A DNA stretch of 53,479 nucleotides, from contig JAOPXU010000168.1 in NCBI GenBank assembly GCA_025964985.1, forward strand, positions 1-53,479. The letters are read 5' to 3'. Source of the DNA: Nocardioides sp. Lineage in GTDB: Bacteria; Actinomycetota; Actinomycetes; Propionibacteriales; Nocardioidaceae. A model generated the notes under the pieces. That model made no database searches. It was not told where the DNA came from and was given only the letters and a program-made list of their open reading frames with translations. Made by a program: the position numbers and the translations under genes. Positions 24,321 through 51,715 of the stretch are shown here, one piece after another (position 1 is the stretch's first letter; each line of letters opens with the position of its first letter).

Positions 24321-24348
24321 TTGACGGGTGTCAATTCTGCCGTAGGCT
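24321..24348 (+). promoter_or_regulatory. Promoter/operator of the FMO-TetR-ChoD operon
   Basis: TTGACGGGTGTCAA (24321-24334) has TTGAC/GTCAA arms and doubles as a -35 (TTGACG). The -10 TAGGCT (24343-24348) stands 16 nt on and 7 nt before the GTG at 24356, so the message is probably leaderless. A TetR gene is second in this operon and is the natural candidate repressor. Confidence 0.58.
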
Positions 24349-24355
24349 CGGTCGG

Positions 24356-25699
24356 GTGACCCAGACCACACGCGTGCCCACCGTCGCCGTCATCGGCGCC
24401 GGCATCAGCGGGCTGACCTCCGCCAAGATGCTCGCCGACTACGGCGTGCCGTTCACGGTCTTCGAGACCTCCGACCGCGTCGGCGGCAACTGGGCCTTCC
24501 GCAACCCCAACGGCCACAGCAGCGCCTACCGCTCGCTGCACATCGACACCTCCAAGCACCGACTGTCCTTCAAGGACTTCCCGATGCCGGACAGCTACCC
24601 CGACTTCCCGCACCACACCCAGATCAAGGCCTACCTCGACTCCTACTGCGACGCCTTCGACCTGCGCCAGCACATCGAGTTCGAGAACGGCGTCGTCAAC
24701 GCCTCCCGGCGCCCCGCCGAGGACGGCGGCGGCTGGACGATCAAGGACCAGGCCGGAGCGACGCGCCACTTCGACATGCTCGTCGTCGCCAACGGCCACC
24801 ACTGGGACCCGCGCACCGCGCAGTTCCCCGGCGAGTTCACCGGCGACTCGATCCACTCCCACCACTACATCGACCCGACCGAGCCGCTCGACCTCAAGGG
24901 CAAGCGGATCGTCGTCGTCGGCCTCGGCAACAGCGCCGCCGACATCTCCGTCGAGCTGTCGAGCAAGTCGCTGCAGAACGAGGTGACGCTCTCGACGCGC
25001 AGCAGCGCCTGGATCGTGCCGAAGTACATGGGCGGCCTGCCCGCCGACAAGTACTTCGTCACCATCCCGCAGATCCCACTGCACTGGCAGCGGTGGGTGC
25101 TGCAGAAGATGCAGGTCATGGCCGGCTCCAACCCCGAGCTCTACGGCCTCCCCAAGCCCAACCACAAGTTCTTCGAGGCCCACCCGACGCAGTCGGTCGA
25201 GCTGCCGCTGCGCCTGGGCTCCGGCGACATCACGCCGAAGGGCAACATCGCCCGCCTCGACGGCCGCACGGTCCACTTCGAGGACGGCACCAGCGGCGAG
25301 TTCGACGTCATCGTCTACGCCACCGGCTACAACATCACCTTCCCGTTCTTCGAGCCCGACTTCCTCAGCGCGCCCGGCAACCACATCCGGCTGTTCAAGC
25401 GGATGTTCAAGTCCGACGTCGACGACCTGGTGTTCATGGGCTTCGCGCAGGCGACCCCGACCCTGTTCCCCTTCGTCGAGGCGCAGGCCCGACTGCTGGC
25501 GGCCTACGCCGTCGGCGCCTACGAGCTGCCCACGCCGGAGGAGATGGAGCGGGTCATCGACGCCGACCAGCAGAAGTTCACCGGTCACGTGCTCGACCGG
25601 CCGCGCCACACCCAGCAGCTCGACTACTTCGTCTACGAGCACGACCTGCGGGTCAAGGAGATCCCGGCCGGCCTGGCCCGCGGGCGCGTGACGGCGTGA
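24356..25699 (+). CDS. Flavin-containing monooxygenase
   Basis: 447 aa, GTG start. The FAD motif is GAGISGL near residue 15, followed by DRVGGNWAF and an FMO-like FPHHTQIKAYLDSYCDAFDL. The NADPH motif is VVVGLGNSAADIS, and ATGYNITFPF is the family's ATGY block. The FMO fingerprint region reads FPGEFTGDSIHSHHY. It would insert oxygen into a nucleophilic substrate or a ketone. It leads an operon with TetR, hydrolase and ChoD-like genes joined by GTGA overlaps. Confidence 0.9.
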   Translation: MTQTTRVPTVAVIGAGISGLTSAKMLADYGVPFTVFETSDRVGGNWAFRNPNGHSSAYRSLHIDTSKHRLSFKDFPMPDSYPDFPHHTQIKAYLDSYCDAFDLRQHIEFENGVVNASRRPAEDGGGWTIKDQAGATRHFDMLVVANGHHWDPRTAQFPGEFTGDSIHSHHYIDPTEPLDLKGKRIVVVGLGNSAADISVELSSKSLQNEVTLSTRSSAWIVPKYMGGLPADKYFVTIPQIPLHWQRWVLQKMQVMAGSNPELYGLPKPNHKFFEAHPTQSVELPLRLGSGDITPKGNIARLDGRTVHFEDGTSGEFDVIVYATGYNITFPFFEPDFLSAPGNHIRLFKRMFKSDVDDLVFMGFAQATPTLFPFVEAQARLLAAYAVGAYELPTPEEMERVIDADQQKFTGHVLDRPRHTQQLDYFVYEHDLRVKEIPAGLARGRVTA

Positions 25700-26277
25700 C
25701 CGCTGCCACGACCCCCACCAAGGGCGACGCCCGGCGCACCGCGCTGCTCGAGGCGCTCGACCTGCAGCTGCAGGAGTCGAGCCTCGAGTCGATCACCATC
25801 GCCGACATCTCGCGACGCGCCGGCGTCACGCGCTCGGCGTTCTACTTCTACTTCGAGAACAAGGCGCAGGCCACCGCCGCGCTCATGGAGGAGATGTACG
25901 ACGAGTCGATGGTCGCCGCGGGCTACCTCGACGGCGACGGGACGCCGGCCGCGCGCGTCGAGGCGATGGTGCGCGGGCTCTTCGGGGCCTGGGAGCGCCA
26001 CCAGCACCTGTTCCGCGCGATGCTCGACGCGCGCCACACCAGCGCCCACGTGCGTGAGCTGTGGGACTCCGACCGGCAGTCGTTCGTGCCCCACCTCGCC
26101 ACCGTCGTCGAGGCGGCCGGGGGTCACGACGACCCCACGGCACTCGCCTCGGTGCTCCTCGAGCTCAACGACCGCATGCTCGAGCGCCTCGCGCTCGGCG
26201 GCCCCCTGACCCGCGACCAGCTGGTCGACACCGTCGTGTCGATCTGGCTCCGATCCATCTACGGAGACCCCACGTGA
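25696..26277 (+). CDS. TetR-family regulator A
   Basis: 193 aa from a GTG overlapping the FMO stop. The N-terminal HTH is SITIADISRRAGVTRSAFYFYFENKAQ in type, followed by an all-helical ligand domain with no close family match seen. It sits inside the operon it probably represses through the TTGACGGGTGTCAA box 1.4 kb upstream. Its ligand may be a substrate or product of the FMO, hydrolase or ChoD steps. Confidence 0.88.
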   Translation: MTAATTPTKGDARRTALLEALDLQLQESSLESITIADISRRAGVTRSAFYFYFENKAQATAALMEEMYDESMVAAGYLDGDGTPAARVEAMVRGLFGAWERHQHLFRAMLDARHTSAHVRELWDSDRQSFVPHLATVVEAAGGHDDPTALASVLLELNDRMLERLALGGPLTRDQLVDTVVSIWLRSIYGDPT

Positions 26278-27167
26278 GCACCGCTCCCCGCACCGCGACC
26301 ACCACCACCTTCCTCTCCGAGGGCGACACCATCGACGCCTGGCACTTCGCCGCCGCCGACGACCGCCTCGGCAACCCCGTCGTCGTGATGGCCCACGGCC
26401 TCGCCGGCACCAAGGACTCCGGCCTCGCGTCGTTCGGCGAGAGCCTGGCCGCGGCCGGCGCCCACGTGCTGGCCTTCGACTACCGCGGGTTCGGCGCCTC
26501 GGGCGGCAGCCCGCGCCAGACGGTGTCGATGGCCGGCCAGCTCGCCGACTACCGCGCCGCCGTCGACGCCGCCCGCAAGCTGCCCGGCGTCGACCCGGCC
26601 CGCGTCGTCCTGTGGGGCGTCTCGCTCGCCGGTGGCCACGTGATGGCGGCCGCCTCAGGACGCGACGACATCGCGGGCGTCATCTCCCTCACGCCGCTGG
26701 TCGACGGCCCGGCCGCCGGCCGCCTCGCGCTGCGGCACCACTCCAAGGCGTCGATCGCCCGGAGCACTGCTCTCGGTGTGCGCAGCAAGGTGGGCAGGAC
26801 GCGGATGATGCCGGTCGCGGCGCGCCCGGGCGAACTCGGCGCGCTCACCATCTCCGGCGCCTACGAGGACTACCTCTCGATCGCCGGACCCACCTGGGTC
26901 AACGAGGTCGACGCGGCCGTCGGCCTCGAGCTCGGCGGCCACCGCCCCGGCAAGCTGGCCAAGGGCATCACCGCCCCGATGCTCGTGCAGATCGCCGACT
27001 TCGACCGCAGCGCCCCGCCGCAGGCCGCGGCCAAGGCGGCGTTCGCGGCGAAGGCCCTGGTGCGCCACTACCCGTGCGACCACTTCGACGTCTACGCCGG
27101 CAAGCGGTGGCACGACGCCGTCGTCGCCCATCAGGTCTCCTTCCTCGAGCGCCTGTTCCTGGCGTGA
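26274..27167 (+). CDS. Alpha/beta hydrolase
   Basis: 297 aa from a GTG overlapping the tetR stop. VVMAHGLAGTKDSGL gives the oxyanion loop, LAFDYRGFGASGG a conserved strand, GVSLAGG the nucleophile Ser (about 116), and HFDVY a late catalytic His. The core matches dienelactone-hydrolase or YqiA/Frsa-like serine hydrolases. In this context it may open an ester or lactone made by the monooxygenase, which is inference. Confidence 0.85.
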   Translation: MSTAPRTATTTTFLSEGDTIDAWHFAAADDRLGNPVVVMAHGLAGTKDSGLASFGESLAAAGAHVLAFDYRGFGASGGSPRQTVSMAGQLADYRAAVDAARKLPGVDPARVVLWGVSLAGGHVMAAASGRDDIAGVISLTPLVDGPAAGRLALRHHSKASIARSTALGVRSKVGRTRMMPVAARPGELGALTISGAYEDYLSIAGPTWVNEVDAAVGLELGGHRPGKLAKGITAPMLVQIADFDRSAPPQAAAKAAFAAKALVRHYPCDHFDVYAGKRWHDAVVAHQVSFLERLFLA

Positions 27168-28867
27168 CCCACTACGACGTCCTCGTCGTCGGCTCGGGCT
27201 TCGGCGGCAGCGTCTCGGCGCTGCGGCTGAGCGAGAAGGGCTACCGCGTGGGCGTCCTCGAGACCGGACGTCGCTGGACCGACGCCGACTTCGCCGCCCA
27301 GGGCTCGCGCGACATGCTCTGGGCGCCACGGCTCGGCATGCTCGGGCCGATGCGGCTGAGCATGCTCGGCGAGATCTCGCTGTTCAGCGCGGTCGGCGTC
27401 GGCGGCGGGTCGCTGATCTACGCCAACACGCTCTACGAGCCGCACGACGCGTTCTTCTCCGACCCGTCGTGGGCCGGCATCACCGACTGGCGCGCCGAGC
27501 TCGCGCCCTACTACGAGCAGGCCCGCCGGATGCTCGGCGTCACCACCAACCCGCGGCTGTGGCCGGCCGACGAGCTGGTGCGCGAGGTGGCCGCCGACCT
27601 CGGCGTCGCCGACACGTTCCAGCCCACCGACGTCGGCGTCCTGTTCGACGAGTCCGCGCCGGGCCGCGAGGTGCCCGACCCGTTCTTCGGCGGCGCCGGC
27701 CCGACCCGCCACGCCTGCACCCACTGCGCCCGCTGCACCTCCGGCTGCCCCGTCGGCGCCAAGAACACGCTGCCCAAGAACTACCTCCACCTGGCCGAGG
27801 CAGCCGGCGCCGTCGTGCACGAGCTGAGCGAGGTCACCGACGTGCGCCCGCGCCCCGGTGGCGGCTACACCGTGTCGACCCGGCACCCGCGCCGGCGTCG
27901 TCGTACGCGCACGTTCACGGCCGACCAGGTCGTCGTCTCCGCCGCCGCCCGCGGCACCCAGGCCCTGCTCCACTCGCTCAAGGCGAGCGGCTCGCTACCG
28001 GCGCTGTCGCAGCGGCTCGGCGAGCTGTCGCGCTCCAACTCCGAGGCGATCGTCAACGTGCTGGCCCGCGAGCCGCAGGGCTTCGCGCAGGGCGTGGCGA
28101 TCACGTCGTCGTTCCACCCCGAGCCGCACACCCACGTCGAGCTCTGCCGCAGCAACGCCATGCAGGACAAGGGCGCCGTCCTCAACGTGCCGCTCGTCGA
28201 CGGTGGCGCCGGACGGCTGCGCCGCTTCGTCACCGAGCAGGTGCGCCGCCCGGGCCCGCTCCTGCGCACCCGCCGCCTCCGCGACTCGTCGTCGCGCACC
28301 CTGTCGCTGCTGGTGATGCAGTCGCTCGACAACTCGCTGACGTCCTACCTGCACCGCGGCAAGCTGCGCACCCGCGTCGGCACCGGCGCCCCCAACCCGT
28401 CGTGGATCCCGGTCGCCCACGACGTCGTGCGCCGGCTGGCCGCCAAGGTCGGCGGCGACGCCACCTCCCTGGCCAGCGACCTCGCCGGCCGCCCCGCCAC
28501 CGCCCACTACATCGGCGGCGCCGTCATCGGCGCCACCGCCGCCGAGGGCGTCGTCGACCCCTACCACCGCGTGCACGGCCACCCCGGCCTCCACGTCGTC
28601 GACGGCTCGGTCATCGGCGCCAACCTCGGCGTCAACCCGTCGCTCACCATCACCGCCATGGCCGAGCGCGCCCTCGCCCTGTGGCCCAACCACGGCGAGG
28701 CCGACCCCCGCCCGACCCTCGGTGCGGCGTACGAGCCGGTCGCGCCGGTGCCGCCGCGCTCCCCCGCCGTACCTGAGCACGCGCCGGCGGCCCTGGTGTG
28801 GCTCAGTGCGCCCAAGGCGCACGGTCAGCACGACCCGACCCCACGTCGGTCGAGGAGCTCGCGCTAG
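27164..28867 (+). CDS. ChoD-like GMC oxidoreductase (cholesterol-oxidase type), with a repeat-derived C-terminus
   Basis: 567 aa, GTG overlapping the hydrolase stop. The FAD site is VVGSGFGGSVSALRLSEKG, with GVGGGSLIYANTL and a C-terminal DGSVIGANLGVNPSLTI carrying the active-site Asn. Sequence order and motifs closely follow mycobacterial ChoD (Rv3409c), including WAPRLG, ITDWR and PNPSWIPV. A ferredoxin-like Cys motif CxxCxxCxxxCP (Cys185, 188, 191, 195) stands in the middle. Mycobacterial ChoD ends shortly after ALxWL; here reading continues into a palindromic repeat, which supplies about the last seven residues and the TAG stop. Confidence 0.88.
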   Translation: MTHYDVLVVGSGFGGSVSALRLSEKGYRVGVLETGRRWTDADFAAQGSRDMLWAPRLGMLGPMRLSMLGEISLFSAVGVGGGSLIYANTLYEPHDAFFSDPSWAGITDWRAELAPYYEQARRMLGVTTNPRLWPADELVREVAADLGVADTFQPTDVGVLFDESAPGREVPDPFFGGAGPTRHACTHCARCTSGCPVGAKNTLPKNYLHLAEAAGAVVHELSEVTDVRPRPGGGYTVSTRHPRRRRRTRTFTADQVVVSAAARGTQALLHSLKASGSLPALSQRLGELSRSNSEAIVNVLAREPQGFAQGVAITSSFHPEPHTHVELCRSNAMQDKGAVLNVPLVDGGAGRLRRFVTEQVRRPGPLLRTRRLRDSSSRTLSLLVMQSLDNSLTSYLHRGKLRTRVGTGAPNPSWIPVAHDVVRRLAAKVGGDATSLASDLAGRPATAHYIGGAVIGATAAEGVVDPYHRVHGHPGLHVVDGSVIGANLGVNPSLTITAMAERALALWPNHGEADPRPTLGAAYEPVAPVPPRSPAVPEHAPAALVWLSAPKAHGQHDPTPRRSRSSR

Positions 28868-29081: not shown

Positions 29082-29981
29082 TCAGCTCAGGCGACGCCGC
29101 AGCACCTCGACCAGCTCGCGGTCCATCCGCTCGACGACGGCGGTGCCCTGGGCGATCTGGACGCCGTGGAAGGTGCCGGGGTAGGAGTGCACCTCGACCG
29201 AGACGCCGGCGGCGAGCATGCGCATGGCGTAGGTGAGGCCCTCGTCGCGGAGCGGGTCGAGCTCGCAGGTGACGACGTAGGCGGGCGGCAGGCCGGCGAG
29301 GTCCTCGGCGCGGGCGGGGGCGGCGTACTGGTCGGCCTCCTGGCCGCCGAGGTAGTACTCCCACGACTTCCGGGCCTGGGGGCGCGACCAGAGGGGGGTG
29401 TCGTCGCCGGCGCGCATGGAGGGGGTGTCGAGCCGGTCGTCGATCTCGGGTACGCCGAGCGACTGGAAGCACAGGGCCGGGCCGCCGCGGTCGCGGGCCA
29501 GGAGGGCGACGGCGGCGGCGAGCCCGCCGCCGGCGGACAGGCCGTGGACGGCCAGCCGGTCGGCGCGTATGCCGTCCAGGGAGGCGAGCAGGCGCAGGCC
29601 GGCGTAGCAGTCCTCGAGGCCGGCGGGGTAGGAGTGCTCGGGGGCCAGGCGGTAGTCGACGGAGACGACGACGACGCCGAGGTCGCGGCACAGGGCGACG
29701 GCGGCGCCGTGCTCGAGGGCCACCGACCCGAGGCAGAAGCCGCCGCCGTGCAGGTAGAGCAGGCCGCCGACGGGACCCTCGACGCCGGTGGGACGGAAGA
29801 CGCGGCAGCCGTCGACGTCCTCCCACTCGACCCCGGTCTCGTCGACCTCGATGCCGTCGGCGAACGACTCCATCATCAGTCGCGCGGCCGGGACGTCGTC
29901 GAGGCCGTCGGCCATCTCCGGAAGCAGCTCGAGGAGCGGCACCAGCTCGGGGTCGAGGTTGGGGAAGGCGCTGGCGTCCAT
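29082..29981 (-). CDS. Alpha/beta hydrolase, HSL-type esterase
   Basis: This 299-aa protein has the hormone-sensitive-lipase oxyanion motif YLHGGGFCLGS, VDYRLAPEH, a nucleophile elbow HGLSAGGGLA in place of the usual GDSAGG, the Asp block CELDPLRDEG, and the catalytic His in GTFHGVQ. It hydrolyses short carboxyl esters. The ATG overlaps the tetR stop by one base. It shares an operon with a Baeyer-Villiger monooxygenase, so cleaving the ester product of that enzyme is a natural role, although inferred. Confidence 0.92.
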   Translation of the reverse strand: MDASAFPNLDPELVPLLELLPEMADGLDDVPAARLMMESFADGIEVDETGVEWEDVDGCRVFRPTGVEGPVGGLLYLHGGGFCLGSVALEHGAAVALCRDLGVVVVSVDYRLAPEHSYPAGLEDCYAGLRLLASLDGIRADRLAVHGLSAGGGLAAAVALLARDRGGPALCFQSLGVPEIDDRLDTPSMRAGDDTPLWSRPQARKSWEYYLGGQEADQYAAPARAEDLAGLPPAYVVTCELDPLRDEGLTYAMRMLAAGVSVEVHSYPGTFHGVQIAQGTAVVERMDRELVEVLRRRLS

Positions 29982-30571
29982 CAGTTCTCCTGGGTCACGG
30001 GCGAGAGGGCGGGCACGAGAAAGGTCTGCAGGTAGGCGCGCAGCGAGCGCGGGGAGTCGGCGTCGACGGCGCGACCGGGCACCGACACCAGCGACACGAC
30101 GAGCCGGATCACCCACTCCGCGGCGGCCTCGAGGTCGAGGTCGTCGCGCACCAGGCCGCGCTCGCGCGCCCACGCCAGCCGCTCGACCCAGAAGCCGGAG
30201 AGCCCGGGCACGATCTCGTGCACGTAGGTGCCCATCACCTCGGCGTAGGCGTCGGGCTCGGCCTCGGCGAGCTCGAGGGCGAGCGAGCCGAGCGGGGAGC
30301 GGCGGCTGAGCAGCACGGCCTCGGCGACCATCCCGGCGACGCCGTGCGCACGGCCGGCGCGGCCGACGCGGCTGCGCGCCTCGGACCAGAACGCCTCGTC
30401 GCGCCGGATCAGCGCCGCCGACAGCAGGGTCGGCTTGTCGGGGAAGAACCGGTAGACGTAGGCCCGCGAGAAGCCGGACTCCTCGACGACCGAGGTGACC
30501 GTCGTGCGCCGGATCCCGTCGCGGCGCAGGCAGGCCTCGGCCGCGTCGAGGATCTGGTCGCGCGCGGTCAC
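29981..30571 (-). CDS. TetR-family regulator B
   Basis: 196 aa, GTG overlapping the BVMO stop. The HTH is TTVTSVVEESGFSRAYVYRFF in type, followed by a helical effector domain. It lies between the BVMO and esterase genes of one operon. The operon promoter carries a double TGTAGACA palindrome, its likely target, which would also control the divergent zinc ADH operon. Confidence 0.88.
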   Translation of the reverse strand: MTARDQILDAAEACLRRDGIRRTTVTSVVEESGFSRAYVYRFFPDKPTLLSAALIRRDEAFWSEARSRVGRAGRAHGVAGMVAEAVLLSRRSPLGSLALELAEAEPDAYAEVMGTYVHEIVPGLSGFWVERLAWARERGLVRDDLDLEAAAEWVIRLVVSLVSVPGRAVDADSPRSLRAYLQTFLVPALSPVTQEN

Positions 30572-32463
30572 CGCAGGACGAGGTCGGCCGGGTCGGGACG
30601 CCGCGTCCAGGCCCAGTAGTCGACGATCCGGAACGGGTTGAGCACGTGCACCTCCCCGTCGTCGTTGGTGTAGTAGTTGTGCTCGATGTGCGGCGACGCC
30701 CACACGGTCATCCGCAGCTCGGCCTGGCACTTCTCGTACCACGCGTCGTACGCCGCCCGCGTCGGCTCGACGGAGGCGCGGCCCTCGGCGAGCAGGGCCA
30801 GGCAGCCCATCACGTAGGACGTCTCGCACTCGGTGGCCAGGATGATGCTGCCGCCGCTCGCGAGGTTGGTGCCCGGCCCGTAGAGCATGAAGAAGTTGGG
30901 GAAGTCGGGCACGGTGACGCCGAGGTGGGCGCGCGGGCGGGTGCCCCACGTGTCGCGCAGGTCGGCGCCGCTGCGGCCGACCACGCGCATCGGCGCGAGG
31001 TAGTCGTTGGCCCTGAAGCCGGTGGCCCAGATGACGACGTCGGCCGGGTGCTCGACCCCGTCGCTGTCGACGACGCCCGACGGCGTCAGCCGGGAGACCC
31101 CCGAACGCACCAGCTCCACGTTGTCGCGGGTCAGCGTGCGCAGCCACGACCCGTTGTCCTGCAGGGTGCGCTTGCCGGTGGGCGGGTAGGTCGGCACGAC
31201 CTTGTCGACCAGGTCGGGCCGGCCGTCGACCTGGGACACGATCCACTCGGTGAACATGGTGCGGACCAGGTCGTTGATCTCGCTGACCGAGTGCTCCTGG
31301 TCCTCCCACGCCGGGTCGACCTGCGCGGCCACGAGCCCGGTGTCGGTGCCGGGGAACATGATGAGGAAACGGAACCACCGCGCGTAGAACGGCAGGTGCT
31401 CCAGCGCCCAGCGCGCGCCCGGCCCGACCGGGTCGTGGTAGCCGGGGTTGGGGAACATCCACTGCGCCGTGCGCTGAATGACGGTCAGCGACCCCACCGT
31501 CTCCGCGATCGCGGGCGCGACCTGGAAGCCGGTCGCACCGGCACCGATCATCACGACGTCCTTGCCGGCCAGGTCGACGTCGTGGTCCCACCGGGCGGTG
31601 TGGAACGCCGGTCCGGCGAACTCCTCCGCCCCCGGTAAGTCGGGCACGTGCGGCCGGCTCAGCAGCCCGACCGCGCTGATCACCGCCCGGGCGGTGAGGG
31701 TCGAGCCGTCGTCGAGGTGCACGGCCCAGGTCGACGTGGCGTCGTCCCAGGTGGCGCCGAGGACCTCGGTGCCGAAGCGGACGTGGTCGAGGACGCCGTG
31801 GTCTGTGGCGACGCGCTCGAAGTAGGCGAGCAGCTCGGGCTGCTGGGCGAAGTACTCGGTCCAGTGGTCGCTGGGCTCGAAGCTGTAGCAGTAGAAGTGG
31901 CTGCCGACGTCGACGCGCGCACCGGGGTAGGTGTTCTCGAACCAGGTGCCGCCGACGCCGGCGTTCTTCTCGACGACGACGTAGGGGTAGCCCGCCTCCC
32001 CCAGCCGTACGGCGGCCAGGAGCCCCGACATGCCGGCCCCGATCACCACGACCGGCAGGTCGGCGGCCCCGGGCACGGGCTCCGGGGCGCGGGTGTCGGC
32101 GCCGTCGAGGGCGAGCTCCTCGAGGACCATCGGCACGTACTCGGCGCCGACCTCCTGGGCGACGACGAGCGCCATCACCTCCTCGAGCTCCGGCCCGGTC
32201 AACGGCGACGGCGTCGGACAGCCACGGGCGCGCCAGCCGGTGACGACCTCGAGCGCGAGGGCGCGGGCGGCGGCGAGGTCCTCGGGTGCCATGTAGCCCT
32301 GGTACTCGTTGAGCATCGCGCCGGCCGGCCGCAGCGGCCCGTCGAGGATCGTGCGCCGCTGCTCGGGCGTGCCCAGGTGGACGCAGCTGGCCAGCAGCGC
32401 CGGCACCGAGACGTCCTCGAGGTGGGCGGCGAGCTGCTCGTCGGTCAGGTCCGTCTGGTCCAC
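30568..32463 (-). CDS. Baeyer-Villiger monooxygenase, HAPMO-like (N-terminally extended)
   Basis: 631 aa from a GTG set by a -10 at 7 nt. FAD and NADPH Rossmann motifs are at GAGMSG (142-147) and GAGATG (308-313). The BVMO fingerprint FxGxxxHxxxW is intact as FAGPAFHTARW (282-292). The first ~130 residues precede the FAD domain; such an extension is known from 4-hydroxyacetophenone monooxygenase (640 aa). It converts ketones to esters or lactones using NADPH, O2 and FAD. Longer in-frame upstream sequence is antisense to the ADH gene and was rejected. Confidence 0.92.
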   Translation of the reverse strand: MDQTDLTDEQLAAHLEDVSVPALLASCVHLGTPEQRRTILDGPLRPAGAMLNEYQGYMAPEDLAAARALALEVVTGWRARGCPTPSPLTGPELEEVMALVVAQEVGAEYVPMVLEELALDGADTRAPEPVPGAADLPVVVIGAGMSGLLAAVRLGEAGYPYVVVEKNAGVGGTWFENTYPGARVDVGSHFYCYSFEPSDHWTEYFAQQPELLAYFERVATDHGVLDHVRFGTEVLGATWDDATSTWAVHLDDGSTLTARAVISAVGLLSRPHVPDLPGAEEFAGPAFHTARWDHDVDLAGKDVVMIGAGATGFQVAPAIAETVGSLTVIQRTAQWMFPNPGYHDPVGPGARWALEHLPFYARWFRFLIMFPGTDTGLVAAQVDPAWEDQEHSVSEINDLVRTMFTEWIVSQVDGRPDLVDKVVPTYPPTGKRTLQDNGSWLRTLTRDNVELVRSGVSRLTPSGVVDSDGVEHPADVVIWATGFRANDYLAPMRVVGRSGADLRDTWGTRPRAHLGVTVPDFPNFFMLYGPGTNLASGGSIILATECETSYVMGCLALLAEGRASVEPTRAAYDAWYEKCQAELRMTVWASPHIEHNYYTNDDGEVHVLNPFRIVDYWAWTRRPDPADLVLR

Positions 32464-32470
32464 ACCGCGG

Positions 32471-32510
32471 AGTGTAGACACTTGTGCCGGAGTGTCTACA
32501 GGTCTAGCGT
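32471..32510. promoter_or_regulatory. Divergent promoter with double TGTAGACA palindrome
   Basis: AGTGTAGACACT (32471-32482) is a perfect-armed palindrome, and TGTAGACAC (32473-32481) pairs with GTGTCTACA (32492-32500). On minus, -10 TACACT (32471-32476) lies 7 nt before the BVMO GTG. On plus, -10 TAGCGT (32505-32510) lies 7 nt before the ADH GTG, with -35 TTGTGC (32482-32487) 17 nt upstream. One repressor here could silence both directions. Confidence 0.65.
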
Positions 32511-32517
32511 CCGCGAC

Positions 32518-33558
32518 GTGCGCTCCGTGATCGTCCACGGGACGGGTCAGGTGTCCGTCGACACCGTCCCGGACCCCACGCTGCCAGGCCCCGACGGAGC
32601 CGTCGTCGCGGTCACCGCGACGGCGATCTGCGGGTCCGACCTGCACTTCTACGACGGCGACCTGCCGTTCTACCCGGTGGCCCTCGGCCACGAGGTCGTC
32701 GGCCGCGTGGTCGAGGTCGGTCCCGACGTGCGGCGCGTGCGGGTCGGTGACCGGGTGATGGTGGCATCCGTCGCGGGGTGCGGCGAGTGCCGCGGCTGCC
32801 TGGCCGGCGACCCGGTGACGTGCGTGAAGGGCGGGCAGGTCTTCGGCTCCGGCACCGGCCTCGGCGGCGGGCAGAGCGAGCTGCTCGGCGTACCCGCGGC
32901 CGACTTCCAGCTGCACGTGCTCCCCGAGGACCCGGCCGAGCTCAGCGACGAGGCGGCCCTGCTGCTGACCGACAACCTCGGCACCGGCTGGGCCGGCGCC
33001 CAGCGCGCCGACATCCCGCCCGGCGGCACGGTGGTCGTGCTCGGACTGGGCGCCGTCGGCCTCTGCGCGGTGCGCTCGGCCCTCGCGCTCGGAGCCGGCC
33101 GCGTGCTCGCCGTCGACCCGGTCGGAGGACGCGTCGAGCGGGCCGTGGCCTCCGGCGCCACCGCCGTCGAGGGACCGACCGTCGAGGCCGTGCTCGAGGC
33201 CACCGGCGGGCTCGGGGCCGACGCCGTCATCGACGCCGTCGCCACCGACGGCTCGATGACCGACGCCTTCGGCGCGGTGCGCGCCGGCGGCACCATCTCG
33301 GTCGTCGGCATCCACGACCTCGAGCCGTTCCCGTTGCCCCTGCTCATGGGCGTCTACCGCAGCGTCACCCTGCGGATGACCACCGCACCCGTCCACCGCA
33401 CCTGGCGCGACCTCGTGCCGCTGGTGCGCCACGGCCGGCTCGACGCGACCGGGATCTTCACCCACACCTTCGACCTCGACGACGCCGCCGACGCCTACGC
33501 CGCCGTCGCGGCCCGCAGCGCCGAGGTGCTCAAGGTCCGCCTCACCCCCGGGGCCTGA
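32518..33558 (+). CDS. Zinc-dependent alcohol dehydrogenase (MDR family)
   Basis: 346 aa from a GTG chosen by the -10 at 7 nt. Catalytic zinc ligands are Cys38 (ICGSD) and His58-Glu59 (GHE). The structural zinc set is Cys88, Cys91, Cys94 and Cys102. The nucleotide fold reads VVLGLGAVGLCAVRSAL. It oxidises an alcohol, possibly producing the ketone used by the divergent BVMO. The DUF3556 gene follows after 2 nt. Confidence 0.92.
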   Translation: MRSVIVHGTGQVSVDTVPDPTLPGPDGAVVAVTATAICGSDLHFYDGDLPFYPVALGHEVVGRVVEVGPDVRRVRVGDRVMVASVAGCGECRGCLAGDPVTCVKGGQVFGSGTGLGGGQSELLGVPAADFQLHVLPEDPAELSDEAALLLTDNLGTGWAGAQRADIPPGGTVVVLGLGAVGLCAVRSALALGAGRVLAVDPVGGRVERAVASGATAVEGPTVEAVLEATGGLGADAVIDAVATDGSMTDAFGAVRAGGTISVVGIHDLEPFPLPLLMGVYRSVTLRMTTAPVHRTWRDLVPLVRHGRLDATGIFTHTFDLDDAADAYAAVAARSAEVLKVRLTPGA

Positions 33559-33560
33559 CC

Positions 33561-35234
33561 ATGGGTTTCCTCCAGCCGAACCTGCCGGTCGTCGACCACG
33601 ACACCTGGCACGACCTGCCCCGCCAGGACCGGATGCGCCCGCTCGCGCGGCACTTCGCGGAGTTCGGGTTCGGCTCCCCCGACGTCCTCATCGTCATGTA
33701 CCTGCTCAAGATCGTGCTCTACGTCGGCGTCGGCTGGCTGCTCGTCCTCACGGTCCCCGGCGACGTCGGCGTCACCGACCCGGCGTTCTTCTTCACCTTC
33801 GTGCTCTGGACGATGCTGTTCGAGGTGCTCGGGCTGGGCTGCGGCTTCGGTCCGCTCAACCTGCGATTCGTGCCGCCGATGGGCGCGTTCCTCTACTGGC
33901 TGCGTCCCGGCACCGTCCGCCTCGCGCCCTGGCCCGACCGCGTGCCGCTCACCGGCGGTGACCGGCGCACCGTCGTCGACGCCGTCCTGTACGCCGCGCT
34001 GGTCGTCTCCCTGGTCGTGGCGGCCTGGGGCGGCGCACGACGCGGCGAGGTGGTCGCGGTCGTCGTCGCGCTCGCGCTCATCGGCCTGCGCGACAAGGTG
34101 GTCTTCCTGGCCGCGCGCTCGGAGGTCTACGCGCCGCTGACGCTGGTGCTGCTGCTCGAGGGCACCGACCCGGTGGTCGCGGCCAAGCTGCTGCTCGTCG
34201 TCATCTGGTGGGGCGCCGCGGTGTCCAAGCTCAACCCGCACTTCCCGTTCGTGGTCGCGGCGATGATGAGCAACTCGCCGGTCTGGCGCTGGGGCTCGTT
34301 CAAGCACCGCTTCCACCGCGACTTCCCCGACGACCTGCGCCCGTCGCGGCTCTCGGCGACGCTCGCGCACGTCGGGACCGTCGTCGAGCTCGGCGTACCG
34401 CTGGTCCTGCTGCTCAGCGACGGCGGGCCGGTCACGGTCGTGGCCTCGGCGGTGATGATCGCCTTCCACCTCAACATCATCAGCAGCTTCCCGATGGGCG
34501 TGCCGCTGGAGTGGAACGTCTTCATGATCATCGGCATCGTCACGCTCTTCCTCGGCCAGGGCGAGCTCACCGCCGGCGACCTGGCCGACCCGCTCCCGGT
34601 CGTCGCCCTGCTCGCCGTCGTCGTCGCCGTCGTCGTGGCCGGCAACCTGTGGCCCGACAAGGTGTCGTTCCTGCCGGGCATGCGCTACTACGCCGGCAAC
34701 TGGGCGGCCAGCGTCTGGTGCTTCCGCGGCGACGCGCTCGCACGCTTCGACGAGCACGTCGTGAAGGCGTCGCTGATGCCGCACCAGCAGCTCGAGAAGG
34801 TCTACGGCTCGCTGCAGGAGGCGATGGTGCCGATGCACCTCGGCTACGCCTTCCGCGGCTTCCACACCCACGGCCGCGCCCTGTGGACGCTGGTCCCGCG
34901 CGCGTGCGGCGAGGACCACGAGGACTACCTCGTCCTCGATGGCGAGCTCGTCGCCGGCACCACCCTGGGCTGGAACTTCGGCGACGGCCACCTCCACCAC
35001 GAGCAGCTCGGCCGCGCGCTGCAGGACCGCTGCGACTTCGCGCCCGGCGACGTCCGCGTGGTCTTCCTCGAGTCGCAGCCGTTCTGGCCGATGAGGCGAC
35101 CCACCCAGGCCTACCGCCTCTTCGACCCCGCCGTCGGCGAGATCGAGCGCGGGTACGTCGAGGTGGCCGACCTGGTCTGCCGCCAGCCGGTCTGCGACGA
35201 CGTACCCGTCCACGTGACACGCTCGGGAGCATGA
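33561..35234 (+). CDS. DUF3556 multi-pass membrane protein
   Basis: 557 aa. About nine or ten hydrophobic segments span residues 40-380, including LKIVLYVGVGWLLVL, VIWWGAAVSKLNPHFPFV and AFHLNIISSFPMG. A hydrophilic C-terminal part of about 180 residues follows (YAGNWAASVWCFRG, LEKVYGSLQEAM, MHLGYAFRGFHTHGR). The layout matches DUF3556 proteins of Mycobacterium and relatives, whose function is unknown. Conserved His in the loops (HFPF, FHLN, HTH) suggests an enzyme or metal site. The downstream FAD oxidoreductase overlaps by ATGA, so the two probably act together. Confidence 0.85.
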   Translation: MGFLQPNLPVVDHDTWHDLPRQDRMRPLARHFAEFGFGSPDVLIVMYLLKIVLYVGVGWLLVLTVPGDVGVTDPAFFFTFVLWTMLFEVLGLGCGFGPLNLRFVPPMGAFLYWLRPGTVRLAPWPDRVPLTGGDRRTVVDAVLYAALVVSLVVAAWGGARRGEVVAVVVALALIGLRDKVVFLAARSEVYAPLTLVLLLEGTDPVVAAKLLLVVIWWGAAVSKLNPHFPFVVAAMMSNSPVWRWGSFKHRFHRDFPDDLRPSRLSATLAHVGTVVELGVPLVLLLSDGGPVTVVASAVMIAFHLNIISSFPMGVPLEWNVFMIIGIVTLFLGQGELTAGDLADPLPVVALLAVVVAVVVAGNLWPDKVSFLPGMRYYAGNWAASVWCFRGDALARFDEHVVKASLMPHQQLEKVYGSLQEAMVPMHLGYAFRGFHTHGRALWTLVPRACGEDHEDYLVLDGELVAGTTLGWNFGDGHLHHEQLGRALQDRCDFAPGDVRVVFLESQPFWPMRRPTQAYRLFDPAVGEIERGYVEVADLVCRQPVCDDVPVHVTRSGA

Positions 35235-36673
35235 GCCCCCGTCGACCGGCACTGCGCGAGACCGATGCCGTCGTCGTCGGGTCCGGGCCCAACGGCCTGG
35301 CCGCCGCCGTCCGCCTCGCGCAGGCCGGTCACCGCGTCACCGTGCTCGAGGCCGCGCCCACCATCGGCGGCGGCACCCGCACCCAGGAGCTCACCCTGCC
35401 CGGGCTGCTCCACGACGTGTGCTCGGCCGTGCACCCGTTCGCCCTCGCGTCGCCGTACCTCGCCTCGCTGCCGCTGGCCGACCACGGCCTCGTGTGGCGC
35501 TGGCCCGAGATCGACCTGGCCCACCCGCTCGACGACGGTACGGCGGGCGTGCTAGTGCGCGACCTCGACGAGACGTGCCGCGGGCTCGGGGTCGACGGGC
35601 GGGCCTGGCGGGGCGTCTTCGGTCCGCTCGTGCGCCACTTCGACGGCCTGGCCGACGACATCCTCGGACCGATCCTGCGCTGGCCCGGCCACCCCGTGCA
35701 GATGGCGCGGTTCGGGCTGCGCGCCGGGCTGCCGGCCACGGTCCTGGCCCGCCGCTTCCGCACCCCGCAGGCCCAGGCGCTGTTCGCCGGGTCGGCCGCC
35801 CACGCCTTCCGGCCGCTGTCGCGTCCCGTCACCGCCGCGGTCGGCGTCATGCTCACCGCGGCCGGCCACCGGCACGGCTGGCCGGTGCCCGAGGGCGGGT
35901 CGGCCGCCATCACCGACGCCCTGGCCTCGCTGCTGACCGAGCTCGGCGGCGAGATCGTCACCGGGCACGCGGTCCGGAGCACCGCCGACCTGCCGAAGGC
36001 CCGGATCACCATGCTCGACACCGGGCCGCAGGCCGCCGCCGAGATCCTGGGCGACCGGCTGCCGCGGCGCCGGCAGCGCGCCTACCGCCGCTGGCGCTAC
36101 GGACCGGGCTCGTTCAAGCTCGACCTCGCCGTGCGCGGCGGCGTCCCGTGGACCGCCGAGGCCGCCCGCCGGGCGGGCACCGTCCACGTCGGCGGCACCC
36201 TCGAGCAGGTGGCCGAGGCCGAGGCGGCGATCTGCCGCGGCGAGATGCCGGAGCGGCCGTTCCTGCTCGTGGGTCAGCAGTCGCTGGCCGACCCGACCCG
36301 TGCGGTCGGCGACGTGCACCCGGTCTGGGCCTACGCCCACGTCCCGGCCCACTGGGAGGGTGACGGCGAGAAGGTCGTCCTCGACCAGATCGAGCGGTTC
36401 GCCCCCGGGCTGCGTGAGCGGGTCGTCGCGACCGCCGTGCGCACCCCGGCCGACCACGAGGCCGAGAACGCCAACTACGTCGGCGGCGACATCGCCGGCG
36501 GCGCCAACGACCTGCTGCAGCTCGTCGGCCGCCCGCGGATCGCGGCCGACCCCTACGCCACCGGCGCGCCCGGCGTCTGGCTCTGCTCGTCGTCGACCCC
36601 GCCCGGCGCCGGCGTCCACGGCATGTGCGGCTTCCGCGCCGCCGAGCGCGCCCTGGCGTCCCTGCCCGGGTAG
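35231..36673 (+). CDS. Phytoene-desaturase-like FAD oxidoreductase
   Basis: 480 aa. The N-terminal VVVGSGPNGLAAAVRLAQAG and EAAPTIGGGTRTQEL are FAD-binding motifs of the CrtI/NAD(P)-binding amine-oxidase-like group, and GVHGMCGFRAAERAL is the C-terminal FAD contact. No crtB or other carotenoid gene is nearby, and the coupling with a DUF3556 membrane protein suggests a membrane-lipid or steroid dehydrogenation instead. Its last 121 nt overlap the convergent membrane-protein gene. Confidence 0.88.
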   Translation: MSPRRPALRETDAVVVGSGPNGLAAAVRLAQAGHRVTVLEAAPTIGGGTRTQELTLPGLLHDVCSAVHPFALASPYLASLPLADHGLVWRWPEIDLAHPLDDGTAGVLVRDLDETCRGLGVDGRAWRGVFGPLVRHFDGLADDILGPILRWPGHPVQMARFGLRAGLPATVLARRFRTPQAQALFAGSAAHAFRPLSRPVTAAVGVMLTAAGHRHGWPVPEGGSAAITDALASLLTELGGEIVTGHAVRSTADLPKARITMLDTGPQAAAEILGDRLPRRRQRAYRRWRYGPGSFKLDLAVRGGVPWTAEAARRAGTVHVGGTLEQVAEAEAAICRGEMPERPFLLVGQQSLADPTRAVGDVHPVWAYAHVPAHWEGDGEKVVLDQIERFAPGLRERVVATAVRTPADHEAENANYVGGDIAGGANDLLQLVGRPRIAADPYATGAPGVWLCSSSTPPGAGVHGMCGFRAAERALASLPG

Positions 36674-38696: not shown

Positions 38697-38710
38697 CCTG
38701 GGGCTGGATC

Positions 38711-38755
38711 GGACACCTGTCCAGTCGGGTGTCGGACACCTGTTGACGCGTGTCA
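38711..38755. promoter_or_regulatory. Divergent regulatory region with two operator types
   Basis: GGACACCTGTCC (38711-38722) matches the GGACAnnTGTCC palindrome at the tetR C start (47965-47976). A half-decayed second copy starts at 38734. TTGACGCGTGTCA (38743-38755) is identical to the box at 11265-11277. The region controls the epimerase (minus) and amidohydrolase (plus). Confidence 0.55.
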
Positions 38756-38769
38756 GGTGAGCGGGTCCA

Positions 38770-48947: not shown

Positions 48948-50135
48948 GTGCCGACCAGCCCCCACCCCGCCGCCCACCTGGTCCAGCAGGCCGCCCTCCG
49001 CCCGCCGAGCGAGCTGGTCGACGTGGTCGCCGATGTGGCCCGCGAGGCGTGGGGCGCCGACGGCGTGGAGCTGCTGCTGGCGACGTACGAGCAGACCGAC
49101 CTGGTGCCCCTCGGGCGACGCGGCCGGCGTCACGCGACCGCGCCCGTCGACGACGGACCAGCCGGAGCTTGCTTCCGCAGCGGCGAGGCGATCGTTGCGG
49201 CGGCGACCGGGACGACCTGGGTGCCGGTGACCCACCGCGGCGACCGGCTCGGCGTGCTCGGCGTCGCCGCCGAGCACCTGCCTCCCGACGACCTGCGGGC
49301 CTTCGCCGACGCGGTGGCCCTGCACCTGGTCGCGGGCCGGGGCTACGACGACGCCGTCGAGGTCGCGCGTCGTACGCAGGAGATGGCGGTCGGCGCCGAG
49401 CTGCTGACCTCGCTGACCCCCGCACTGAGCTACGCCGACGCGCGGTTCGCGCTCGCTGCGGTGGTGGAACCCAGCTACGCGTCGGGCGGTGACGCGCTCG
49501 ACCACGCCGTGGACGGCGAGGTGCTGCGGGCGATGATCCTCGACGCCACCGGCCACGGGTTCAACGCCTCGCTCGTCAGCGCCGTCGGCGTGGCGGCCTA
49601 CCGCAGCGCCCGGCGTGCGGGTGAGGACCTGCTCGGCACCTGGTCGGTGATGGACGGCTTCGTCGGCGACACCGGTCGCGGCGACAGCAGCGGTGACGGG
49701 GCGCGCTACGCCACCGCGCTGCTCGTCGAGCTGCACCTCGGCACCGGACGGATCGGCTGGGTCAGCGCCGGCCACCCGGCCCCCGTCGTCCTCCGCGTCG
49801 GCGGCGACGTGACCGTGCTCGAGTCCGACGCCGCACCACCGCTCGGCACCGGCCTGGGCGGCGAGCCGGTCCCGGCCGAGGAGTTCCTCGAGCCCGGCGA
49901 CGTCCTCGTCCTGCACACCGACGGGCTCACCGAGGCGCGCGGGCTCGACGGCCAGATGCTCGGCCTCGACGGCTTCCTGCTCGCCCTGCGCGACGCGCTG
50001 CGCGGCGAGGGGCTCCTCGCCGAGCGGCTGCGCCGGCTGCGGCTCGACCTGCTGGCCCGCGACGACGCCTGGCTCAGCGACGACGCGACCCTGATGGTCG
50101 TCCAGTGGGGTCAGGCCCCCGGTCAGATCGAGTAG
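48948..50135 (+). CDS. SpoIIE-type PP2C phosphatase with an N-terminal sensor domain
   Basis: 395 aa, GTG start. The first ~140 residues form a GAF-like domain (ADGVELLLATYEQTDLVPLG), and the PPM/SpoIIE domain has MILDATGHGFNASL, IGWVSAGHPAPVVLR, DVLVLHTDGLTEAR and WLSDDATLMVV. The Asp residues bind the metals. Such enzymes usually dephosphorylate anti-anti-sigma proteins, but no sigma partner is nearby. It overlaps the convergent ligase gene by 13 nt. Confidence 0.9.
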   Translation: MPTSPHPAAHLVQQAALRPPSELVDVVADVAREAWGADGVELLLATYEQTDLVPLGRRGRRHATAPVDDGPAGACFRSGEAIVAAATGTTWVPVTHRGDRLGVLGVAAEHLPPDDLRAFADAVALHLVAGRGYDDAVEVARRTQEMAVGAELLTSLTPALSYADARFALAAVVEPSYASGGDALDHAVDGEVLRAMILDATGHGFNASLVSAVGVAAYRSARRAGEDLLGTWSVMDGFVGDTGRGDSSGDGARYATALLVELHLGTGRIGWVSAGHPAPVVLRVGGDVTVLESDAAPPLGTGLGGEPVPAEEFLEPGDVLVLHTDGLTEARGLDGQMLGLDGFLLALRDALRGEGLLAERLRRLRLDLLARDDAWLSDDATLMVVQWGQAPGQIE

Positions 50136-51715
50136 CTGCGTCCCCGCTCCTCGCGCATCCACAGCACCCCGTTGCCCGGGGTCGGGCCCTGGGCGGCGAG
50201 CTCGCGCTTGATGACCTTGTTGGTGGCCGTCGAGGGCAGGGACGGCGCGATGCGGACGTAGCGCGGCCACGCCTTGGGTGAGAGGTCGGCCTGGTCGGCG
50301 AGGAACTTCTCGAGGTCGGTCGGGGTCAGCTCGCCGTCGTCGACGAGCACGAGTGCCGCCATCACCTGGTCGCCGACGTTGCCGTCGGGGACGGCGTAGA
50401 CCGCGACCTGGGAGACGACGGGCAGCCGCACGAGGACCCGCTCGATCGGGGCGGCGGCGAAGTTCTCGCCGTCGACACGCATCCAGTCGGCGGTGCGACC
50501 GGCGAGGTAGATGTAGCCGTCGGCGTCCTTGTAGGCGAGGTCGCCGGACCAGTACATGCCGTGGCGCATGCGCTCGTCGTTGGCGGACTTGTCGTTGTAG
50601 TAGCCCTGGAAGTAGCCCGCACCCTGGGTGTTGACCAGTTCGCCGACCGCCTGGTCGGCGTTGATGAGAGCACCGCTCTCGTCGAACTCGGCGATCGCGC
50701 ACTCGGTGACGGTCTCGCTGTTGTAGATCGCCACCCCGTCGAGGCCGGTGCCGATCGAGCCCTTGGGGGTCCCCTCCGACCGCGTGACGATGACGGCGAG
50801 CTCGGTCGAGCCGAAGCCGTCCATGACGTGGCAGTCGAAGCGGCGCGAGAACTCCTCGATGTCGCGGTCGCTCGCCTCGTTGCCGAAGGCCACGCGCAGG
50901 GTGTTGTCGGCGTCGTCGGGCTGCTCGGGCGTCGCCAGCACGTAGGCGAGCGGCTTGCCGACGTAGTTCATGTACGTCGCGCCGTAGCGGCGCACGTCGG
51001 CCAGGAAGCCCGACGCCGAGAACCGGGCCGGCACGATCGCGGCGCCGGCGCCGAGGGCGACCGCCCAGCCGGCGACGACGGCGTTGGAGTGGAAGAGCGG
51101 CATCGAGACGTAGCAGACGTCGTCGGCGGTCACCTTGAACCGCTCGACCAGGTTGAGCCCGGAGAACAGGACCATCAGGTGGGCGACCTGGACGGCCTTC
51201 GGCTCGCCGCTGGTGCCGGAGGTGAAGATCATCATGAAGGTGTCCATGGCCTCGACCTCGCGGTGCGGGGCGAGGGCCTCGACGGTGGTCGCGGACGCCG
51301 CCAGCATCGCGGCCCACTCCTCCGAGCCGGTGTCGAGCACGCGGACGCCGTCGAGGTCGAGCCCCTCGAGCAGTGGCCGGTGCTCGTCGTTGACGACCAG
51401 GAGCTGGCAGTCGGAGCGGCGCACGTCGGCCAGCAGGGCCTCGCCGCGGCGCGTCGTGTTGATGCCGCAGAGCACGTAGCCACCGAGGGCGGCCGCCGCC
51501 ATCGAGCGGAGCATGTCGGGGCTGTTGCCCAGCAGGACGCCGACGTGGAGCGGGCGCTCGGGGTCGGCCTGGGAGATCAGGGCGGCCGCCTCGGTGGCCG
51601 CCTCGGCGAGGTGCTCGCGCCAGGTCCAGGTGGTGCCCTCGTGCAGGACGGCGGGACGGTCGACGTGCTCGCCGGCGGCGAGCTCGCGCAGCAGCTGCTG
51701 GACGTTGTCGGCCAC
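50123..51715 (-). CDS. Acyl-CoA synthetase, FadD17-like
   Basis: 530 aa, GTG start. The motif FTSGTSGEPKAV is the AMP-binding P-loop, with YVSMPLFHSNAVV, DGFGSTELAV, YWSGDLAYKDADGY and a late NKVIKREL Lys. Overall it tracks mycobacterial FadD17 (Rv3506) closely, e.g. FLADVRRYGATYMNYVGKPLAYVLATPE. FadD17 activates the shorter (C5) steroid side chain. It is the second gene after an LLM oxidoreductase with a KstR-like box. Steroid function is inferred from homology. Confidence 0.9.
   Translation of the reverse strand: MADNVQQLLRELAAGEHVDRPAVLHEGTTWTWREHLAEAATEAAALISQADPERPLHVGVLLGNSPDMLRSMAAAALGGYVLCGINTTRRGEALLADVRRSDCQLLVVNDEHRPLLEGLDLDGVRVLDTGSEEWAAMLAASATTVEALAPHREVEAMDTFMMIFTSGTSGEPKAVQVAHLMVLFSGLNLVERFKVTADDVCYVSMPLFHSNAVVAGWAVALGAGAAIVPARFSASGFLADVRRYGATYMNYVGKPLAYVLATPEQPDDADNTLRVAFGNEASDRDIEEFSRRFDCHVMDGFGSTELAVIVTRSEGTPKGSIGTGLDGVAIYNSETVTECAIAEFDESGALINADQAVGELVNTQGAGYFQGYYNDKSANDERMRHGMYWSGDLAYKDADGYIYLAGRTADWMRVDGENFAAAPIERVLVRLPVVSQVAVYAVPDGNVGDQVMAALVLVDDGELTPTDLEKFLADQADLSPKAWPRYVRIAPSLPSTATNKVIKRELAAQGPTPGNGVLWMREERGRSYSI

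Follow-up and report, generated by a model that had tools for sequence, protein, structure and literature searches.

Between two divergent operons in the genome of a soil actinobacterium, Nocardioides sp., one opening with a gene for a Baeyer-Villiger monooxygenase (BVMO) and the other with a gene for a zinc-type alcohol dehydrogenase (ADH), lies a mirrored sequence that raises the question of which protein reads it and which genes are switched in consequence. We addressed this question within the window, by which we mean the whole stretch of DNA analysed (53,479 nucleotides, contig JAOPXU010000168.1), and by comparison with relatives in the same family (Nocardioidaceae) and class. Judging from its sequence and setting, the mirrored element is very probably the landing site for a repressor encoded in one of the two flanking operons. 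The relevant features are the following.

29082..29981, minus strand: alpha/beta-hydrolase esterase with HGGG and GLSAG motifs; its start overlaps the TetR B stop
29981..30571, minus strand: TetR B, 196 aa, predicted repressor of both operons; its start overlaps the BVMO stop
30568..32463, minus strand: BVMO, 631 aa, GTG start, fingerprint FAGPAFHTARWD at residue 282
32471..32498, minus strand: predicted BVMO promoter, -35 TAGACA (32498-32493), 16 nt, -10 TACACT (32476-32471)
32473..32500, no strand assigned: putative operator inverted repeat, conserved core GTAGACA (32474-32480) N12 TGTCTAC (32493-32499)
32482..32510, plus strand: predicted ADH promoter, weak -35 TTGTGC (32482-32487), 17 nt, -10 TAGCGT (32505-32510)
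32518..33558, plus strand: zinc-type ADH, 346 aa, GTG start
33561..35234, plus strand: DUF3556 membrane protein, second gene of the ADH operon
35231..36673, plus strand: FAD-dependent oxidoreductase, third gene of the ADH operon, CrtO/CrtI-like but under the curated cut-offs

On the plus strand, positions 32473-32500 read TGTAGACACTTGTGCCGGAGTGTCTACA, an inverted repeat of the form TGTAGACACT-N8-AGTGTCTACA whose 10-nt arms are 100% complementary across a gap of 8 nt. Allowing up to 3 mismatches, this 28-mer matched once in the window and 0 times in 100 dinucleotide shuffles, and no other copy of TGTAGACA-N12-TGTCTACA was found at up to 2 mismatches in the genome assembly (4.48 Mb in 426 contigs, 89.7% complete), the next-best match having 3 mismatches and lying on a different contig. 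The first-pass annotation had described a double TGTAGACA palindrome across the BVMO -10 and against the ADH -35. The repeat is real, but the unit kept among relatives is one dyad, GTASACA-N12-TGTSTAC; two separate TGTAGACA palindromes were ruled out as the conserved unit, since the outer T is variable. Likewise, the BVMO -10 and the ADH -35 region are both overlapped by the repeat, but the site is not confined to the -10 on the BVMO side because it spans the predicted BVMO -35 as well. Among the 31 TetR B clade sites that we profiled (without L166-L169), T2, A5, C6, A7 and their mirror partners are invariant.

Within positions 32300-32700 (401 bases), TAGACA-16-TACACT on the minus strand was the sole sigma-70-like match (shuffles 0.0); the ADH -35 TTGTGC, which lies inside the repeat, was read by eye and is absent from the consensus promoter scan output. 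Leaderless genes are characterized by a -10 element about 7 nt ahead of the start codon and by the lack of a Shine-Dalgarno site. Both sides of the window show this arrangement, with the BVMO GTG (32463) 7 nt behind TACACT, the ADH GTG (32518) 7 nt behind TAGCGT and no Shine-Dalgarno-like site, in a block whose two start codons are about 55 bp apart. When the window and 10 relatives were compared with shuffles of the 40 bases upstream, a TAnnnT ending 6-8 nt before the start was found on the ADH side in 10 of 11 loci (shuffle mean 0.39) and on the BVMO side in 8 of 11 (shuffle mean 0.45), with 0 of 2000 shuffles as high in either case; the BVMO sides of L068, L070 and L075 have no TAnnnT at leaderless distance. 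No Shine-Dalgarno-like site precedes the ADH or BVMO-side starts in the 11 loci except that of the L075 ADH, where a leader of 58 nt contains the Shine-Dalgarno-like GAGGA. The BVMO-side start lies 7-10 nt from the operator in all 11 loci (in L073, the start of a gene remnant) and the ADH start 16-18 nt from it in 9 of 11 (9 nt in L068, 58 nt in L075), spacings that are to be read as predictions because we picked the start codons from candidates, guided by alignments and operator proximity. This pattern makes it probable that the 5' end of each message lies at the start codon or directly beside it. That both would start at GTG, as initially annotated, did not hold across relatives: leaderless-type spacing is conserved in most loci, but the ADH start is best read as ATG in 7 of 11.

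The BVMO, TetR B and esterase genes follow one another with overlaps of 1-4 bases. Type I BVMOs carry the fingerprint FxGxxxHxxxW(P/D) between two GxGxxG motifs, and the enzyme of the window has it at residue 282, between GxGxxG at 142 and 307. The strict form was present in 6 of 10 BVMOs, including that of the window, and variants in L067, L071, L072 and L075. The best solved-structure matches of the window's enzyme are cyclohexanone and steroid monooxygenases, and a plasmid search returned relatives below 60% identity, with no named function among the best 25 of 839 records. The product of the gene within the BVMO operon scores 37.7 bits for the TetR_N helix-turn-helix (Pfam cut-off 24), and its AlphaFold model is all-helical (pLDDT 86.7). 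Foldseek gave generic TetR matches (TM about 0.4-0.7) with no hint at a ligand among the best 50 of 839, all of which we take to be TetR-type from their titles. In Pfam searches, the EthR_C domain found in TetR A, a second TetR regulator in the window, had no match in TetR B. Against the named NCBIfam TetR groups (BetI, ScbR-like, SACE_7040, PsrA and others listed), TetR B reached 19.6-29.6 bits where the cut-offs are 118-300.

How closely the dyad keeps company with TetR B can be seen within the family. Orthologs of TetR B occur in 11 of 294 family genomes, including its own, at 54-69% identity, and the G113 protein shows 70% over a contig-edge fragment. The underlying search gave 15 hits, four of which (29-32% identity) were deemed non-orthologs and used as outgroups (L077-L080). 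A scan of genome contigs yielded one true ortholog, L018 of Nocardioides szechwanensis, which is the same stretch as G129:C13 and was counted once; its 48 other matches were weak, mostly to the DNA-binding domain, and were left out. ADH matches (1e-90) are present in the same 11 genomes and BVMO matches (1e-170) in 10 of them, and all 11 (the window plus 10 relatives) have the operator between ADH and BVMO or its remnant. The exact pattern GTASACA-N12-TGTSTAC was found in 9 of 294 family genomes, all of them among the 11, once each and at this locus, and in none of the 283 family genomes without a TetR B ortholog. The two remaining TetR B genomes carry the site at 1 and 2 mismatches. With up to 1 mismatch, 10 of the 11 genomes have a single site and G256, whose site has 2 mismatches, has none, which ruled out a genome-wide TetR B regulon. 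A reversed control pattern occurred exactly in 2 of 294 family genomes and, at 1 mismatch, in 2 of the 11.

Conservation is concentrated in the half-sites, whose 14 positions are 93.8% identical in pairwise comparison; the spacer reaches 52% and the flanks 31% and 43%, and fourfold-degenerate codon sites, for comparison, are 55% (BVMO) and 52% (ADH) identical. The window's putative switch is of an ordinary kind but unusually well conserved. The two arms are strongly complementary in only part of the species: of 10 possible pairs, L069, L072, L074 and L076 form 6, no better than shuffled sequence (p 0.33-0.48), and L070, L071 and L075 form 7 (p about 0.08-0.09). The surrounding genes are less constant. 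TetR B and the esterase have moved to the ADH side in L075, and L073 has kept operator, ADH and TetR B next to a BVMO remnant of 77 aa, which matches the beginning of the L074 enzyme at 54% identity. Eight of the 11 loci encode an esterase from the Pfam family of the window's enzyme (7 by clustering, L074 by Pfam), a count in which L076 cannot be judged because it ends at a contig edge, leaving its TetR B partial; DUF3556 is present in 5 of 11 loci and the FAD oxidoreductase in 3 of 11. The fixed core in the family is ADH, TetR B and the operator. The set of enzymes that the first-pass annotation proposed to be switched together varies from locus to locus. Part of the association between site and TetR B within the family is accounted for by co-inheritance of the whole cluster.

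Since the pattern had been derived from the window's family, relatives outside it offer an independent test. A profile of 10 TetR B sequences (A1) gave 27 hits in 394 class genomes, 3 of them in the window's genus, and the other 24 were examined. The operator was detected at up to 2 mismatches in 21 of these 24, and in 4 of 4 of the loci last added to the class comparison; L157 carries it at 3 mismatches, and L153 and L154 have no site at up to 2. In 15 of the 21 site-bearing loci, the fetched stretch contains no homolog of BVMO or of ADH (1e-12), which indicates that the operator follows the regulator and not the enzymes. BVMO and TetR B relatives occur together in L139-L141, with ADH and esterase in addition in L139. 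In family f5 (19 loci), where 70-154 nt separate the site from the aligned start of TetR and no BVMO homolog is found in the stretch, the divergent gene is FadD1-like at its start in 16 loci and encodes an FMO in 3 (L149-L151); FadD1 was called by profile in L144 alone (972 bits, cut-off 800), the other f5 calls being made from the first residues. The L149-L151 FMOs are 68-70%, and the hydrolases encoded next to them 56-61%, identical to the window's FMO and HYD, and in L150 genes for an FMO, a hydrolase, FadD1-like and SDR-like proteins and an ADH follow one another without a break (FadD1 and SDR by eye). Genes that we presume to be rho- and prfA-like lie near the TetR loci of L144 and L155. 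Two operator copies 43 bp apart were observed between the TetR and FMO genes in L149 (9929-9997) and L151 (9245-9313).

Taking all clade loci together, including the window, the dyad is found upstream at up to 2 mismatches in 32 of 33, and in L075 it fronts the operon on the ADH side that holds TetR B; the sole stray match lies elsewhere in the window. The 32 loci without the window (633 kb) contain 33 such matches, all near the TetR gene (two each in L149 and L151, none in L157), as opposed to 3 for the reversed control, and at 3 mismatches the numbers are 52 and 9. Six more distant TetRs (L077-L080, L153 and L154) have the site at up to 2 mismatches in 0 of 6 cases; L080, L153 and L154 show one 3-mismatch match each, 3-7 kb downstream of the TetR gene. 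In a tree built without L166-L169, these six site-less proteins are cut off by a branch with 100/99 support, to be read with a long-branch warning that concerns chiefly L080. The fourth residue of their recognition-helix motif SRxx(V/I/L)Y is T in 6 of 6, and Y, W or G in the clade. At class level, the exact pattern occurs in 9 of 394 genomes, 8 of which have a TetR B relative, and the reversed control in 5 of 394. The ninth match, in G327 (L165:1501-1526), has no TetR B, precedes a gene that we take to encode an AbiEi-type antitoxin, and reflects chance or convergence. Given G327 and the exact occurrences of the reversed control at both levels, a lone exact match can be chance, and the weight of the link rests on the position of the site and the company of TetR B. 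By this comparison, in which the site follows TetR B, the earlier proposal of one operator over two promoters with TetR B as its regulator is strongly supported.

These data also bear on other explanations of the conserved block. The dyad could serve another regulator riding with the cluster, such as a global factor or the EthR-like TetR A, with TetR B acting elsewhere. TetR A is an EthR-type regulator encoded in the same window (25696-26277) in the neighbouring FMO operon, and EthR controls the BVMO gene ethA according to one report (PMC9480834). Against this, no separate TetR A homolog was detected, be it in the family (10 loci; tblastn, 1e-15) or in the class (24 loci; 1e-12), with up to 20 kb covered per locus, although a hit coinciding with the TetR B gene would have been merged with the latter; TetR A as the binder found no support at either level. 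Together with the persistence of the site beside TetR B at loci that lack BVMO and ADH, and with the single site per genome at up to 1 mismatch in 10 of 11 genomes, which speaks against a global motif, this makes a foreign regulator very improbable. We give still less credence to the view that the block is a promoter or RNA feature, for instance a hairpin or a dyad for some other process, with no repressor involved: promoter elements do lie in the block, but f5 keeps the dyad 70-154 nt from the TetR start in a different gene setting, and exact dyads are confined to TetR B genomes in the family and, at class level, in 8 of 9 cases.

A milder alternative is that TetR B binds the dyad but strongly switches one operon only, or even activates the ADH side, the shared site being a compromise of a tight divergent promoter in which mainly autoregulation was selected. 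On the BVMO side the site takes in both core promoter elements, on the ADH side just the weak -35 region, and in 6 of 19 f5 loci (L148, L150-L152, L156 and L167) the divergent start is 42-74 nt away, both in keeping with such an asymmetry. Conversely, 9 of 11 family loci keep the ADH start at 16-18 nt from the site, the spacing of the -10 being conserved as well, and the best start of the fadD1-like gene lies 15-20 nt from the site in 11 of 16 f5 loci, a proximity that suggests control of the divergent side. On balance we regard one-sided control as unlikely, although it deserves far more weight than a foreign regulator or a mere promoter feature.

We therefore favour, with considerable confidence, the reading of the repeat as the TetR B operator, through which an autoregulated repressor would silence both divergent promoters, each probably leaderless, at the same time. 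TetR B would bind GTAGACA-N12-TGTCTAC and, because its gene lies inside the BVMO operon, would regulate itself. The bound protein would lie over the -35 and the -10 in front of BVMO-TetR B-esterase and over the -35 region in front of ADH-DUF3556-FAD oxidoreductase and so keep RNA polymerase off both promoters, repression and not activation being suggested by the overlap of the site with promoter elements. A distance of 19 bp between half-site centres, as found here, is long for one TetR dimer, which suggests that a pair of TetR B dimers binds. TetR B would be released by a lipophilic inducer, which may be an acyl compound or something that the enzymes consume or produce, upon which both operons and the repressor would be switched on together; the fadD1-like and monooxygenase targets found elsewhere point to a lipid-like molecule. 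For the enzymes we infer a route from secondary alcohol to ketone, to ester, to alcohol plus acid. The order ADH, BVMO, esterase would fit subterminal oxidation, a pathway assigned to Thalassolituus growing on long alkanes, where a BVMO and an esterase are upregulated (PMC6304351).

A broader scenario, which we offer tentatively and consider possible rather than probable, is that TetR B belongs to a clade not described so far, which occurs in several actinobacterial families and has retained a single 26-bp operator through changes of target: BVMO-ADH-esterase in the window's family and f15, BVMO alone in f19, and in f5 either fadD1-like genes or a monooxygenase operon resembling mymA. All members might then respond to one inducer, a product resembling a fatty acid or an acyl-CoA, which would connect Baeyer-Villiger cleavage with acyl activation. 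In the window's family, the operator would have fused with two leaderless core promoters into one block of about 55 bp.

Other parts of the window hold related elements. Upstream of the FMO operon, positions 24321-24356 contain a dyad TTGAC-GGGT-GTCAA followed by TAGGCT, 7 nt and a GTG start, probably a further leaderless promoter with its own operator, which perhaps serves the EthR-like TetR A. The same operon encodes a GMC oxidoreductase (27164-28867) that comes nearest to the cholesterol oxidase model (456 bits, cut-off 850); seen alongside the FMO and hydrolase, it may point to the oxidation of steroids or lipids. In the gap between the epimerase and amidohydrolase genes (38697-38769), GGACACCTGT occurs twice, once as the near-palindrome GGACACCTGTCC, possibly the operator of another regulator. 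The window also has a FadD1 of its own (50126-51715; 947 bits, cut-off 800), the type of enzyme that faces the TetR B relative in f5.

Autoregulated TetR repressor sites are an ordinary, already known kind of system. In the open-access literature searched, we recognised no description of a switch such as this one or of its parts, and a literal motif search of open-access papers gave nothing usable among the matches listed; as far as these searches show, the TetR clade is new, as are its deeply conserved motif and the way in which its targets were exchanged. Sequence comparison on its own thereby provides an unnamed TetR clade with a concrete operator that can be tested and with a list of targets. 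A ketone-related switch joined to a BVMO-ADH-esterase module might be of use in biocatalysis, and the block presents a clean natural case of mutual constraint between a repressor site and two probably leaderless promoters.

Several known systems resemble this locus in part. The alkyl methyl ketone cluster MekR-MekA-MekB of Pseudomonas veronii combines genes for a BVMO, an esterase and a TetR-type regulator, the same trio as in the window, a likeness in gene content. The genes for EthR and EthA are divergent neighbours. In this M. tuberculosis pair too, a TetR repressor controls a Baeyer-Villiger monooxygenase gene, as described in PMC9480834; TetR B differs in lacking EthR_C, in being encoded inside the BVMO operon and in its putative operator, one compact 26-bp dyad over two enzyme operons. 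The mymA operon (Rv3083-Rv3089) is, in the same paper, under the control of VirS, and in L149-L151 a TetR B relative faces FMO and hydrolase genes in an order that recalls mymA, the regulator being a TetR there and an AraC protein in mymA. MftR of Mycobacterium smegmatis is an actinobacterial TetR with a 27-bp palindromic operator, similar in length to that proposed for TetR B, and with long-chain acyl-CoA effectors that tie it to lipid oxidation, whereas its operator reads T-N2-GGCA-N5-TGCC-N2-A (PMC8728441). The MftR model reached 22.4 bits for the L144 TetR (cut-off 224.9) and gave no listed match to TetR B itself. Finally, crtR of Corynebacterium glutamicum and lysE of M. tuberculosis are leaderless genes beside a regulator site, according to PMC5401885 and PMC5648196, and share with the window the combination of divergent genes, a regulator and a leaderless transcript; as described there, they are leaderless on one side only and involve regulators of other families, whereas in the window both sides are probably leaderless and the predicted regulator is a TetR.
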